A DNA stretch of 35,848 bases from an uncultured Chlorobiaceae bacterium (lineage in GTDB: Bacteria > Bacteroidota > Chlorobiia > Chlorobiales > Chlorobiaceae): positions 1 through 35,848 of the forward strand of contig CAJAOR010000114.1 in NCBI GenBank assembly GCA_903942355.1, read 5' to 3'. A program made the translations under genes and the position numbers. Under the pieces are notes generated by a model, which was given only the letters and a program-made list of their open reading frames with translations, had not been told where the DNA came from and did not search any database. Shown piece by piece: positions 24,002 through 32,534 of the stretch (its first letter is position 1; each line of letters opens with the position of its first letter).

Positions 24002-24445
24002 TTATGAATGTATCGGTCTAGCCACGTCCACCTGTTTGGTCATCAACAGAGTGTTTTTGCCGTTACTTCTGGAGTAGGAGACCTTATCCATAAGGTGATT
24101 GATAAGAAACAGTCCGTACCCTCCCTCCGGATAACTGGATATCACAGGGCTGTGTGTTTGAGGGTTGAACTGCGAATTAGAGTCAATCATGGTTGCTGTA
24201 AGCTCTTGCTTATTGGTGGTTAAGGTGATTGTGACCTCTTTTGCCTTATTGGAAGGGTCAGCATATCGTACAGAATTTGTAAAAGATTCGCTGATGGAGA
24301 GTTCGAACGCATGAGCAAATTCGGAAATGTTGCTGGTAGCGCGTGTTTCATGAGCAAAAATTTCAGCGATATTGCGAGCTATAACCGAAACTAACTTGAC
24401 ATAGATTAAATCGCCCTGCAGGGTAAGGGTGAGTATCTTTTTCAT
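24002..24445 (-). CDS. RsbW-like anti-sigma/HATPase_c regulatory protein (copy A)
   Basis: FELSISESFTNSVRYADPSN...MIDSNSQFNP...YPEGGYGLFLINHLMDKVSY; close paralog of 29985-30422. Confidence 0.85.
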   Translation of the reverse strand: MKKILTLTLQGDLIYVKLVSVIARNIAEIFAHETRATSNISEFAHAFELSISESFTNSVRYADPSNKAKEVTITLTTNKQELTATMIDSNSQFNPQTHSPVISSYPEGGYGLFLINHLMDKVSYSRSNGKNTLLMTKQVDVARPIHS

Positions 24446-24471
24446 ATAAGAGCTATAAAATTTTTGACTGA

Positions 24472-24599
24472 TTACATAGCTGTCGCTGCAACGTCATCAT
24501 ATAAAGCAACTGACTCTCCGGTGACTGCTCGATATGGCTAAGAATGCCTTGCAGTGAGACAATCGGAACGTTATTGCTGTTTTTTTCAATGACAGTCAT
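24472..24599 (-). pseudogene. Remnant STAS anti-sigma-factor-antagonist gene (internal deletion plus frame change)
   Basis: N-terminus MTVIEKNSNNVPIVSLQGILS aligns with STAS MNISEKTINNYIILSIQGILN at 30784; another frame gives ALYDDVAATAM* aligning with DIYDDVSAAAEA*; STAS core with DSSGLG absent; ATGA overlap with upstream stop. Confidence 0.8.
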
Positions 24600-25972
24600 A
24601 CGGTATCTTCTTGATGTATTCTGTTGAAAAGAGCTTTTTGTGTCATTGCTATATCCTTAAAAGGATTGCTGTGAACCGCATAGTAATGATTGACGATATC
24701 TGAATCAATATCATTTTGCGGCCAATCTTCAGCTTCGGCATAACTGAAAACGCCAGGTCTGAGATGCGCTTTGCTCTCCTGAGTCACCTCAACCGGTCGG
24801 CTTCCGATAAGATCAAGATGGCCACTCAGTACCTTAAAAAGCCACATATAGCGATCCAGGGAAAAAAAAGCAGCCAGAGCACTCAGCATGCCCTTTTTTC
24901 TTAGAGTCGTCACTGGCAGAGCCACCTTGCACCGTGGTTTCGCGGAGTGATAGATTGTTGTTTTTGTCGACCAGGAGCCTCGTAACTCAAGTATCGGTCT
25001 TAAAAGAAGATAAGGAAGCAATAGGAGAGTAATGAGCGATATCGCAATACAGCCGTGCACGATCCTTAGGAAGAGAGTTGCTGAACCGCCGGTTTGGCTT
25101 ATGCTACTTAAAAGATGCGGGTCTTCCATTGTTAGCGATTGCCCGCTTTCGGGGTCAATAAGAACATTGCCGGAGGCAATTTTTCTTTCAACTTCAAGCT
25201 GTTCACCAATAAAGGTGTTATCCATAACTATGCTTGATGCAACAGTGCTTTTCCTGTCGACAATCACATTGTTGCCAATGATTGCTGCCGGCCCGATTAC
25301 TGAACCGGCAAGTATCTGGACGTTGTTGCCGATAATGACCGGTTTAACAATTTTCGCGCTTTTTTGAATGACAACATTTCTGCCAATGTAGCATCCCGCC
25401 TCATTGTTATACCCCGGTAGCACGTAGTGTAACAATCTGTTGTGCAGCAGATCTTTGGCGAGTTCATAGTACTGCCCTGCAGAGTCAAGAACAACAGTCG
25501 ATAAGGGAGGAGTCTCGCGGCTGTTTTCTGAAGCGACAGGCGAGCCGGTCAGGCTGAGGGTTTTTTGGTCGAAACCCAAAACATCGCCTGATGGAAGGGA
25601 CGCAAAAAAAGAGCGGTAGTCAGCATTTTTATTGTAATGAAAAAAAAGAATGTTGTTGATAATCATAATCCGTTCATTCGAACAGAATTTGCTGTTTTTT
25701 TCCAGGATTTTATTGAGGCTGTCCGATGGCAGAGAGTTCGCATAACTGATATCAATGCCCCATCTATCGCCTTTTTCGCAAAAGTCTGCAACATCGTTGA
25801 TTGTTTCATCACTTATAATCCTGATAGCGGTGCTGCCAGCCAGGATAGAAAAATCAATGAAAAACTCGATAAACGGCTTGTTGCACAGGGGAACGAGCAG
25901 CGGATGATGGCCGGGCAAGATATCGTGCAACCAGGGATAATCGACCCCTTTTGTGATAATTATTGTTTTCAT
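24596..25972 (-). CDS. Three-domain chimera: nucleotidyltransferase-like + LbH hexapeptide + degenerate polyprenyl-phosphate sugar-transferase-like domain
   Basis: MKTIIITKG...PLLVPLCNKPFIEFFID (NTase-like), YIGRNVVIQKSAKIVKPVIIGNNVQILAGSVIGPAAIIGNNV (LbH), TM helix then FFSLDRYMWLFKVLSGHLDLIGSRPVE...LRPGVFSYAEAED (PGT-like). Confidence 0.8.
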   Translation of the reverse strand: MKTIIITKGVDYPWLHDILPGHHPLLVPLCNKPFIEFFIDFSILAGSTAIRIISDETINDVADFCEKGDRWGIDISYANSLPSDSLNKILEKNSKFCSNERIMIINNILFFHYNKNADYRSFFASLPSGDVLGFDQKTLSLTGSPVASENSRETPPLSTVVLDSAGQYYELAKDLLHNRLLHYVLPGYNNEAGCYIGRNVVIQKSAKIVKPVIIGNNVQILAGSVIGPAAIIGNNVIVDRKSTVASSIVMDNTFIGEQLEVERKIASGNVLIDPESGQSLTMEDPHLLSSISQTGGSATLFLRIVHGCIAISLITLLLLPYLLLRPILELRGSWSTKTTIYHSAKPRCKVALPVTTLRKKGMLSALAAFFSLDRYMWLFKVLSGHLDLIGSRPVEVTQESKAHLRPGVFSYAEAEDWPQNDIDSDIVNHYYAVHSNPFKDIAMTQKALFNRIHQEDTV

Positions 25973-25981
25973 GGTCCCAGC

Positions 25982-26338
25982 TTATTGTCCTGCTGTTGCT
26001 GCATTGAATGAAGCTACAGCGGAGGCGGCGTCGGGGTATATAGAAAAAAGCTGTTTAGCTTTGGTAAGCTCAAAAATTAAAGAGACCTTTGGCCCAAGAG
26101 CAGCAAGCCTGAGATCACCCTTATGCTCAAGCGCCTTGCGCAGACAGGAGACTATAGTACCCAAACCGCTGCTGTCGATAAAGTCCAGAGCGCTGCAGTC
26201 AAAAACAATATTGGCACTTTGCTGTAGCCAGAGTGAAAATGCTTTTTGAAGTTCATTGCAGTTACTGGCATCAATGCGGACCTGCAGTAAAGCAATGCCA
26301 ATTGTTGTATCGGTAGATGTATCGAGTTGAAAGATCAT
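25982..26338 (-). CDS. STAS-domain anti-sigma factor antagonist
   Basis: IVFDCSALDFIDSSGLGTIVSCLRKALEHKGDLRLAALGPKVSLIFELTKAKQLFSIYPD; conserved DSSGLG phosphorylation site. Confidence 0.9.
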   Translation of the reverse strand: MIFQLDTSTDTTIGIALLQVRIDASNCNELQKAFSLWLQQSANIVFDCSALDFIDSSGLGTIVSCLRKALEHKGDLRLAALGPKVSLIFELTKAKQLFSIYPDAASAVASFNAATAGQ

Positions 26339-27078: not shown

Positions 27079-28305
27079 CTACCGTGTAGAGTGCCGATTA
27101 ATTGCGTTGGTGGATCTTTCCCGAATCCTTGACGAATAAGCGCTAGAGATCGATTTTGAGATCTCTTTCCATGCTAATGGTATAAATTGGCTGTCCCTTA
27201 TCAGATAACGCCTCCACATTCGTGTCGGTTCGCTTGCCAGACGCCAGATCCATTCACAGCCTGATCTCTGTATCCACAGGGGAGCCCGATGAATAACACC
27301 TGCAGCAAAATCAAACGCTGCGCCAACACAGAGTATAGGACCAACCTGTAGTCGATCACTATGTTTTGCGGCCCATTTTTCCTGTTTTGGAGCCCCAACA
27401 CCAATAAAAAGGATGTCGATATTTCGGGTGTTTATATCATTAATAATCCAATCGGTCTCTTTCGGCGTATTCTCAAATCCAAAAGGGGGGCAGTAGATAC
27501 CTGATATTTTCAAGCCAGCAAATTTGCCTTTGAGTTTTGCTGCTGCCTGTTCGGCAATACCAGGATTGCCTCCGAGGAAATAGATATTCAAGTCGGCTTT
27601 TGCAGCTTTTTCACACACGGCTATCAAGAGGTCGGCACCGGTTACCCGCTCCGGAAGACTTCCGTCCTTCACTATTTTGCTCAACCAGACAATAGGCATT
27701 CCATCAGCATATCTAAAGAGCGCATTGTCATAGATTTGCTTCATGTCGCTATCCTCTTGCAGCATAACGACATGGTCTACATTTGGCGTGACAACAAGGC
27801 CCTTTTTCTTTTCCTTGCCCGCGTTAATGATTTGAGTAACCGCTGAGGAGAGTGTTGCCCGTTCAAATGAAATGCCTAAAAGTTCTGTTTGCATTTTTTC
27901 TGGTACCTTTGGCTCATGGTTGATTATTTTTTCGGCAACAACTAAAAAGCTTTGATAGCTTCCGAAAAAAATCAGTCCTAACGATCGAAGCAAACGCTCA
28001 TTCTCTTCATCTTCATTTTTTGAGAGGCAGATGATTTTGCATGGATTGAGATGCTGTTTAATATAGCTGAGCAGTTTTGCATCAGGAGCCTCAGAGAAGC
28101 TGTCAGTCATCACAATTAGCTCAAAGTGGTGCCTTTGCGTGCTTATCAATTCAAGTTCTTCAGTGCTCTCGGCCAGGCTAATATGGTAATTGGTATTTTG
28201 AAGCAAAGAGCAAAGCGAAGGGACCTCTATTTTTTTTCCTAAAATCAGTGCGTTAATCACTCGGGGGATATGTGTCTTTGTTTTTAAAAGCCCTGTGTTA
28301 ATCAT
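27079..28305 (-). CDS. WecG/TagA/CpsF-family glycosyltransferase with N-terminal receiver-like domain
   Basis: C-terminal: VTPNVDHVVMLQEDSDMKQIYDNALFRYADGMPIVWLSK...ERVTGADLL...LGGNPGIAEQAAAKL...IGVGAPKQEKW; about 140 extra N-terminal residues with receiver-like beta/alpha pattern. Confidence 0.9.
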   Translation of the reverse strand: MINTGLLKTKTHIPRVINALILGKKIEVPSLCSLLQNTNYHISLAESTEELELISTQRHHFELIVMTDSFSEAPDAKLLSYIKQHLNPCKIICLSKNEDEENERLLRSLGLIFFGSYQSFLVVAEKIINHEPKVPEKMQTELLGISFERATLSSAVTQIINAGKEKKKGLVVTPNVDHVVMLQEDSDMKQIYDNALFRYADGMPIVWLSKIVKDGSLPERVTGADLLIAVCEKAAKADLNIYFLGGNPGIAEQAAAKLKGKFAGLKISGIYCPPFGFENTPKETDWIINDINTRNIDILFIGVGAPKQEKWAAKHSDRLQVGPILCVGAAFDFAAGVIHRAPLWIQRSGCEWIWRLASEPTRMWRRYLIRDSQFIPLAWKEISKSISSAYSSRIRERSTNAINRHSTR

Positions 28306-29984: not shown

Positions 29985-30422
29985 CTAATAATATAACGCA
30001 TTATTACATGTTATTTTTGGTTGTTTTGTCATGGTCAGTATGTTTGAGTCATCTTCCCTTGTGTAAGCAACCTTGTCCATTAGCCGGTGGATCAAAAAAA
30101 GTCCATATCCGCCTTCAGGATAACTGTTTATGTCTGGAGCCTCAGTAATCGGGTTGAATTGCGGATTCTTGTCAATGATGTTTACCGTGAGGGTGCCGTT
30201 GTCGGACCAGAAGCATATCTTAACCTGTTTTTCCTTTTGTGAAGGTTCCGCATATCGGACCGAGTTTGTAAATGCTTCACTAACGGAGAGCTCATAGGCA
30301 TGACAGAATTCAGCTACGTTGGCACCATCGGCAAAAATTTCAGCAACATTACCGGCCATAATGGAGACAATCCGGAGATAACGGAGATCAGCCTGCAATG
30401 TTAAGGTGGCTATCGGGTTCAT
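29985..30422 (-). CDS. RsbW-like HATPase_c regulatory protein (copy B)
   Basis: YELSVSEAFTNSVRYAEPSQ...IIDKNPQFNP...YPEGGYGLFLIHRLMDKVAY; start at Met 30422 by alignment with copy A. Confidence 0.85.
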   Translation of the reverse strand: MNPIATLTLQADLRYLRIVSIMAGNVAEIFADGANVAEFCHAYELSVSEAFTNSVRYAEPSQKEKQVKICFWSDNGTLTVNIIDKNPQFNPITEAPDINSYPEGGYGLFLIHRLMDKVAYTREDDSNILTMTKQPKITCNNALYY

Positions 30423-30460
30423 AAGTAAGATGATTTGCCTTTTCTTGTGCATCTTTTTTA

Positions 30461-30784
30461 TTATGCCTCAGCCGCAGCCGACACATCATCATAAATATCA
30501 AACAGCGTATAGGCCTGTGTGATTTCAAATACTTTTTTTACTCGTTCATTCATTCTTGCCAGTTTGACCACGGCATTGCTTGTCTTTTTTTTCCGGGCAA
30601 TCCCTACCAGCACTCCGAGACCGCTACTGTCAAGAAATTCAATATTTTCCAGGTCAACGACAATAGATTGCGTATCCGGCAACCCTGCTACGTAGGATTT
30701 CAGCATTGGAGCAGAGGAGGCATTGAGGATACCCTGAATCGAGAGAATTATATAGTTGTTGATGGTCTTTTCGCTGATGTTCAT
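30461..30784 (-). CDS. STAS-domain anti-sigma factor antagonist
   Basis: IVVDLENIEFLDSSGLGVLVGIARKKKTSNAVVKLARMNERVKKVFEITQAYTLFDIYDDV. Confidence 0.94.
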   Translation of the reverse strand: MNISEKTINNYIILSIQGILNASSAPMLKSYVAGLPDTQSIVVDLENIEFLDSSGLGVLVGIARKKKTSNAVVKLARMNERVKKVFEITQAYTLFDIYDDVSAAAEA

Positions 30785-30837
30785 GCGGGTTCATTTTTAT
30801 GTGTTTTGTTGAAAATGGCTTTTTGTGTCATGGAAAT
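30781..30837 (-). pseudogene. C-terminal remnant of a second copy of the chimera gene (24596-25972)
   Basis: ISMTQKAIFNKTHKNEPA* aligns with DIAMTQKALFNRIHQEDTV*; about 46/60 nt identical by hand alignment; both end in an ATGA overlap with a STAS start. Confidence 0.8.
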
Positions 30838-30848
30838 ATTTCATTGAA

Positions 30849-32534
30849 CTACTCTCTCTTCGTTGATTGCTTGTTGCCAGAAAGCTTCATGACGATGTCA
30901 CTCCGGGATCCGATACGGATAACAATGCAGGTGGCATCATCATCAAAGGTACGCCTTCCGGTAGCCTCAAAAAGCTGCGTGCTGATTTTTTCTATCAACG
31001 CATCAGGCTGGAGCCTGTGATGCTCAACAATTAAATTACGCAACCGTTCTGTCCCGAACATGGTATTGTCAGGCAAGAGGCTTTCGGTAATGCCGTCGGA
31101 GTACATGACAAAGATATCGTCCTCTTTGAGCGGGAAGCAAACCATTTTGTATTGCTGTTCTTCAATCATGCCCACAGGAAGGTTTTTTCCCTTGAGCATT
31201 GTGCAGGTTCCATCATCGGCATGAAAATGGATGGTAGGGGTGTGGCCACAGTCAATCATGGAAAACTCCCTTTTTTCCAGATCAAGGCGTATAAATAAAA
31301 GTGTTGCATAAATACCGATATCAAGAAGCTCAAAAATGCATTGTGCATGCAACTGGGTGGCAATATCCTCCAGTTCAGGGAGTTGATGGTTCTGGTGTTT
31401 TTTTTGTGCGACGGTTTTCAGAAAAAGCGACTTTAAACCCGCACCAACCAGAGCCGACAGTATGCCGTGTCCCATGACATCGCCAATGAACATATCAGCA
31501 TGCTTGTTGTCGTAAAGGATAAACTCTGTAAAATCACCGTTCAGATGACCTGAAGAGATGGTAAACTGGCTCATTGAAGTCCCATCAAGGGATTTGGGGA
31601 TCGTACTTTGCAACAGTTTCTGCTCAATTTGTGTCTCAAGTTCCTGCTGCAGGTGTTCATAACGTGCCCGGCTTTTTTCTTCCTCAATCCGCGAAGAGAT
31701 ATTCCTTGCAATGATGACGGTATGGAGAACAGAATCAAGGATGAGGGTTCCTGTCGTGACCTCAAGCGGTATTGAACTGCCATCTTTTTTAATCCCGTCT
31801 ATTCGTCGAACATTCCCTTCTCTGAGCGATGCAAGGTTGTTTGCAGGATCTTGGCAGGCACTATACAGGGCGCACGAATTGTTTAGCGGAATGATAAAGT
31901 CCGTAAAACTTTTCAAGTGGAATTCTTGCTCAGTTAGTCCAAAAATGGTTTCAGCAGCCAGATTATTATAGACAATAAATCCCTGCTCATTGAGCAGAAA
32001 AATGGGGTCAAATGCGGAATCGTTCATTGTCCGGAATTGCGTTTCACTCTGACGTAATTCTGCGGACATGATGTGAAGCGTATTATTGACCTTCAACAAC
32101 TCCTCGTTTTTTGTTTCAAGCTGACTGAACAGCATCTGCCGTTCCTCTTTCAGTTGAAAATAATCAATGGCATCCTTTATGACTTTCTTGAACCCCTCCG
32201 GCTCGATTGGTTTTGGGATAAAGCGGAAGACTTCACCAGTATTGATGGACTCAATAATCTGGTCGATATCATGAATGCCGCTGAGAATAACGCGCACAAT
32301 ATCAGGATGGCTTATTTTTACCCGGTTGATGAGCTCCATGCCCGTCATCTCCGGCATGCGCAGATCGGTTAACAGAATCGTTATATCATGAGTTTCAAGC
32401 AACTCCAAAGCCTCTTTACCGCTTGCTGCAAAGTATTTTATATAAGGTTCCTTGCGTAAAAAACGGTTCAATGAACCAAGTGTATCCTGCTCATCGTCAA
32501 CAAAAAGGATCGCAATTTCAGAGAGGGCTTTCAT
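30849..32534 (-). CDS. RsbU-like response regulator: REC + PAS + SpoIIE/PP2C serine phosphatase
   Basis: REC: ILFVDDEQD...ILLTDLRMPEMTG...FIPKPI; PAS: FRTMNDSAFDPIFLLNEQGFIVYNN; PP2C: MFIGDVMGHGILSALVGAG...VMYSDGITES...DDDATCIVIR. Confidence 0.95.
   Translation of the reverse strand: MKALSEIAILFVDDEQDTLGSLNRFLRKEPYIKYFAASGKEALELLETHDITILLTDLRMPEMTGMELINRVKISHPDIVRVILSGIHDIDQIIESINTGEVFRFIPKPIEPEGFKKVIKDAIDYFQLKEERQMLFSQLETKNEELLKVNNTLHIMSAELRQSETQFRTMNDSAFDPIFLLNEQGFIVYNNLAAETIFGLTEQEFHLKSFTDFIIPLNNSCALYSACQDPANNLASLREGNVRRIDGIKKDGSSIPLEVTTGTLILDSVLHTVIIARNISSRIEEEKSRARYEHLQQELETQIEQKLLQSTIPKSLDGTSMSQFTISSGHLNGDFTEFILYDNKHADMFIGDVMGHGILSALVGAGLKSLFLKTVAQKKHQNHQLPELEDIATQLHAQCIFELLDIGIYATLLFIRLDLEKREFSMIDCGHTPTIHFHADDGTCTMLKGKNLPVGMIEEQQYKMVCFPLKEDDIFVMYSDGITESLLPDNTMFGTERLRNLIVEHHRLQPDALIEKISTQLFEATGRRTFDDDATCIVIRIGSRSDIVMKLSGNKQSTKRE

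Follow-up and report, generated by a model that had tools for sequence, protein, structure and literature searches.

A probable recent STAS pseudogene beside an intact HATPase gene in Chlorobium

In partner-switching modules, the loop serine of a STAS protein is phosphorylated by its partner, a HATPase kinase, and dephosphorylated by an input phosphatase (PMC8256260). Modules of this kind serve motility and polysaccharide in Nostoc (HmpU/HmpV/HmpW) and biofilm in Vibrio fischeri (SypA/SypE) (PMC8256260). The locus considered here raises the question of what occupies positions 24472-24599 (minus strand), between a chimera gene and a HATPase gene termed HATPase A, where a STAS gene would be expected, and what the answer means for the HATPase. 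The window, the whole stretch of 35,848 nt that was analysed, is contig 114 of a draft genome of the genus Chlorobium (G000; 2.19 Mb, 258 contigs, estimated 77% complete). Its species is represented by this one draft assembly, and its named relatives are Chlorobiaceae/Chlorobium. Literature searches returned no paper on this locus in Chlorobium.

The most probable answer, to which we give a probability of about 0.88, is that 24472-24599 is a recent pseudogene of a STAS gene, here called STAS-A, produced by two deletions. Gene loss of this sort is an ordinary kind of event; what the locus adds is the two-deletion anatomy, the apparent hybrid origin of the cluster and a scar of the chimera gene before a second STAS gene, STAS-B.

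The remnant and its intact counterparts

The chimera gene (24596-25972, minus strand), encoding hexapeptide repeats and a sugar-transferase-like C-terminus, served as the synteny marker and is present in 27 of the 65 genus genomes, the window's counted in. The C-terminus of its protein resembles a truncated bacterial sugar transferase, and across the 27 Chlorobium genomes identities of the protein range from 46 to 88%. Base-level alignments were made with the closest species, G010 (locus L034) and G026 (L036), whose chimera is 88% identical to the window's; L035, from G079, was aligned too.

The earlier note had proposed a check of related genomes for orthologs with a full-length STAS at this spot, and these were found in all 26 other chimera-bearing species. 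In 26/26 of their genomes the STAS-A gene is intact, encodes about 106-115 aa with no internal stop and lies directly behind the chimera, and a HATPase_c_2-type gene follows it. Among the 27 chimera-bearing genomes, only the window has a remnant in its place. The assignment as a STAS pseudogene is based on these syntenic full-length orthologs together with base-level homology of the surviving pieces.

Two reading frames had been singled out in the remnant. The first, opening at the ATG at 24599, resembles the N-terminus of the intact STAS protein encoded at 30461-30784 beyond chance (score 53; the best of 2000 shuffles reached 50), and a protein profile of genus STAS finds it with E 0.0033. 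The second, ending in ALYDDVAATAM* with its TAA at 24474-24472, is present as described, but its protein match is weak when taken alone: the score is reached by 23 of 2000 shuffles, and the same profile gives a non-significant E of 5.8. This C-terminal piece is secured by DNA similarity and synteny. A DNA profile of three relatives, searched with nhmmer against the whole 35.8-kb window, recovers both parts in collinear order, with E=8.8e-17 for the 5' and middle pieces jointly (24599-24509) and E=0.0012 for the 3' piece (24508-24476). When its DNA was aligned directly with the STAS gene at 30784, the remnant scored 18 and nothing useful emerged, because the 30784 copy is of another lineage; the proper comparison is the syntenic gene in G010 and G026. 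A search of the G000 genome for a second copy of the remnant or of STAS-A found none.

Anatomy of the loss

Aligned with its closest relatives, the remnant resolves into three pieces, all on the minus strand. The 5' piece (24540-24599) keeps 20 codons, MTVIEKNSNNVPIVSLQGIL, in alignment with L034, L036 and L035, and stops at the deletion 1 junction (24539..24540), where 27 nt were lost in frame; the relatives read NASSxxQLK here. The retained middle piece (24510-24539) has 10 codons, SHIEQSPESQ, and is identical in protein to G010 and G026. At the deletion 2 junction (24509..24510), the exact breakpoint of which is ambiguous by a few nt, about 166 nt were lost, the frame was shifted and the DSSGLG stretch was removed. 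The 3' piece (24472-24509), carrying ALYDDVAATAM*, follows in a different frame from that of the ATG. The net deletion that separates the N- and C-terminal pieces is 193 nt, which leaves a remainder of 1 when divided by three, hence the shifted C-terminal frame.

The central loss that the earlier note described, DSSGLG included, is confirmed by the alignment and amounts to about 64 residues. STAS proteins (PF01740) have a whole domain of about 100 residues in one frame, with a conserved phosphorylatable serine (D-S-S-G-L-G); the remnant has two deletions and a shifted frame, and its serine went with deletion 2. As the missing residues include the phosphorylatable loop, no STAS domain is made. 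The retained pieces show few differences from the relatives, and the middle piece no amino-acid change at all, which argues that the loss of STAS-A is recent.

An internal deletion in a once-intact STAS gene had been proposed. The loss is real, but it comprises a 27-nt in-frame deletion and a frameshifting one of about 166 nt, not one deletion. The net 193 nt missing between the terminal pieces is what a single simple internal deletion would also leave, but that reading is scarcely credible and was rejected, as the alignment shows a retained middle piece, 30 nt (SHIEQSPESQ) matching the middle of the relatives' gene, between two gaps. It is possible that one complex event, instead of two deletions, removed both parts. 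A draft of 258 contigs and 77% completeness invites the suspicion that both deletions are an artefact of assembly or binning, with the sequence misassembled. This is very improbable, however: the two distinct junctions stand 30 nt apart, the retained pieces carry the genome's own substitutions, and the junctions share at most about 1 nt of sequence, so no repeat there could have misled an assembler.

The second STAS-HATPase pair and the history of the cluster

Elsewhere in the window, three component types are encoded together on the minus strand and form a predicted partner-switching module: a receiver-PAS-SpoIIE phosphatase of PP2C type, the presumed STAS phosphatase (30849-32534), the intact STAS-B (30461-30784) and its partner gene HATPase B (29985-30452). 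Pair A alone is left without its STAS. Pair B beside the phosphatase gene, and with it STAS-B, is confined to the window (G000), G026 and G010. The STAS of G012, G020, G024, G081 and G086 shares 83-89% identity with STAS-B, and the sister species' STAS-A only 63-69%; in the tree STAS-B groups with the G012/G020/G024-type STAS. For HATPase A, a grouping with G026, G010 and G079 is strongly supported. The surrounding genes also divide: outside the clade, the window's PP2C gene is closest to that of G012 (84%) and its sigma-54 activator to that of G024 (89%), and in the second half of the cluster WcaJ, the chimera and STAS-26 (25982-26338, minus strand; intact, with DSSGLG, and kept in relatives) are closest to G079.

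The gene order of G024 (L054 1916-10077) is phosphatase, WcaJ, STAS-26, chimera, STAS, HATPase, sigma-54 activator and WecG, differs from that of all other relatives and is likely to be the donor type for the window's pair B. Taking WcaJ, STAS-26 and nearly all of the chimera out of a G024-like order gives exactly the order around pair B and predicts a scar, which was found. Positions 30785-30831 (minus strand), before STAS-B, encode a chimera C-terminus (MTQKAIFNKTHKNEPA, compared with MTQKALFNRIHQEDTV), about 16 codons from the very end of a chimera gene that has been lost. When the scar DNA was aligned with each of five chimera 3' ends, the score was reached by 0 of 1000 shuffles. The scar occurs in all three pair-B species: in the window it is open with an ATGA overlap, in G026 it is shortened, and in G010 its frame is broken; in relatives it lies at L036:5459-5530 and, in L077, between STAS and PP2C.

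In neither the STAS nor the HATPase tree are the three B copies united with support, these short proteins being poorly resolved, so that the case for a single arrival of pair B is made by the identical position and the shared scar and not by the tree. On the simplest reading, the cluster would be a hybrid of two Chlorobium lineages formed before the three species split, and STAS-A would have broken later and only in the lineage of the window; which event came first is read from their distribution among species. It seems fairly probable that the spare pair B made STAS-A dispensable and in this way permitted its loss. The locus is a clean example of a partner-switching circuit in a polysaccharide cluster that gains a second pair of another lineage type and afterwards loses one part.

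Two further features of these clusters were noticed. The WecG-type glycosyltransferase gene of the window (27079-28305) has an additional N-terminal stretch of about 190 residues that is weakly receiver-like (response regulator), below the Pfam cut-off, and the two parts of the gene match separate segments in several relatives. In G079 (L035 638-5980), at least two receiver-PAS-SpoIIE phosphatase-like genes stand in tandem upstream of the cluster.

HATPase A and the reading frame before it

The residual ORF described in the earlier note (24453-24599, minus strand) reads as reported, 48 codons with the translation MTVIEKNSNNVPIVSLQGILSHIEQSPESQLLYMMTLQRQLCNQSKIL. Its start overlaps the chimera stop (ATGA), 7 nt separate its TAG from the HATPase A ATG at 24445, and a Pfam scan of it gave no match at E up to 1. 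It owes its existence to the shifted frame, which is closed by a TAG that the intact relatives G010 and G026 already carry in their spacer; with the TAG at the same spacer position there, the closeness of the ORF to HATPase A is inherited by chance. Roughly half of the relatives have an overlap between STAS stop and HATPase start (ATGA or TAATG), and elsewhere the start follows within about 45 nt, which makes coupling plausible for the operon; the 48-codon ORF may couple translation to HATPase A.

A stronger claim, and an unlikely one, is that the ORF has been retained because it functions for HATPase A, as a leader for translational coupling or as a micro-protein. The ATGA overlap at its start, the 7 nt at its end, the habit of coupling suggested by the overlaps in about half of the relatives, and the lack of an obvious Shine-Dalgarno sequence before HATPase A all speak for it. 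The terminating TAG, however, is the chance inheritance just described, no second genome has the ORF, and the sister species, with 28-29 nt from STAS stop to HATPase start, presumably manage without one. The ORF would rather be a by-product of the deletions, with no effect beyond helping ribosomes on to the HATPase A start, and the pseudogene status of the region warns annotators against calling it a gene.

HATPase A itself (24002-24445, minus strand) is intact despite the loss of the adjacent STAS and belongs to the HATPase_c_2, RsbW/SpoIIAB-like serine kinase family (Pfam PF13581, E=1.6e-20). It keeps every column that is invariant among 29 relatives and paralogues, which suggests that pair A may not have lost all function. 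On this evidence HATPase A may still be active and be partnered in trans by STAS-B; its control would then fall to STAS-B or to STAS-26. Alternatively, it would now be an unopposed kinase or binder heading for decay. On the window branch, HATPase A has 10 changed and 7 silent codons, compared with 31 and 86 in four neighbour genes (p=0.011); against HATPase A of two sister species the excess has p=0.068. This mild excess of amino-acid changes is weak and only suggestive; it fits early relaxed selection, which is as good a reading as continued function.

Full decay of the A pair, with function moved entirely to pair B and no rescue of HATPase A by STAS-B, is compatible with STAS-A being a pseudogene and deserves serious consideration, at somewhat less than even odds. 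The relative excess of amino-acid changes on the window branch and the presence of an intact pair B beside the phosphatase agree with it; the intact ORF of HATPase A, with all its invariant residues, and the lack of significance against the sister species' HATPase A do not. The converse proposal, that STAS-B serves both HATPase B and HATPase A and that two partner-switching circuits became one around a shared antagonist when STAS-A was lost, is possible and rather doubtful. The locus is a natural test of cross-talk between STAS-HATPase pairs that are about 60% identical.

Judged by its orthologs, STAS-A would have been an anti-sigma-antagonist-like partner of HATPase A, part of a partner-switching module in a Chlorobium polysaccharide gene cluster. 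The relatives' intact copies resemble SpoIIAA/RsbV (PF01740) in having a full STAS domain with DSSGLG, in being paired with HATPase_c_2 and in lying near a SpoIIE-type phosphatase gene, whereas the window copy, a pseudogene, is missing the phosphorylatable serine and about 64 residues from its centre. As in the Hmp and Syp systems of Nostoc and V. fischeri, STAS, HATPase kinase and phosphatase functions are tied to polysaccharide genes (PMC8256260); in SypE, however, kinase and phosphatase are joined in one protein (PMC8256260), and the predicted Chlorobium system differs from both in having, in one cluster, two STAS-HATPase pairs of different lineage type, one with a broken STAS. More than one antagonist per module also gives redundancy in mycobacterial RsfA/RsfB and chlamydial RsbV1/RsbV2 (PMC8256260), but in the window it is the kinase gene that has outlived its adjacent antagonist gene. 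Outside the window, G000 carries a further STAS-HATPase pair (C248:18648-19355) and a further HATPase_c_2 gene (C190:1031-1372), both of which are possible partners in cross-talk.
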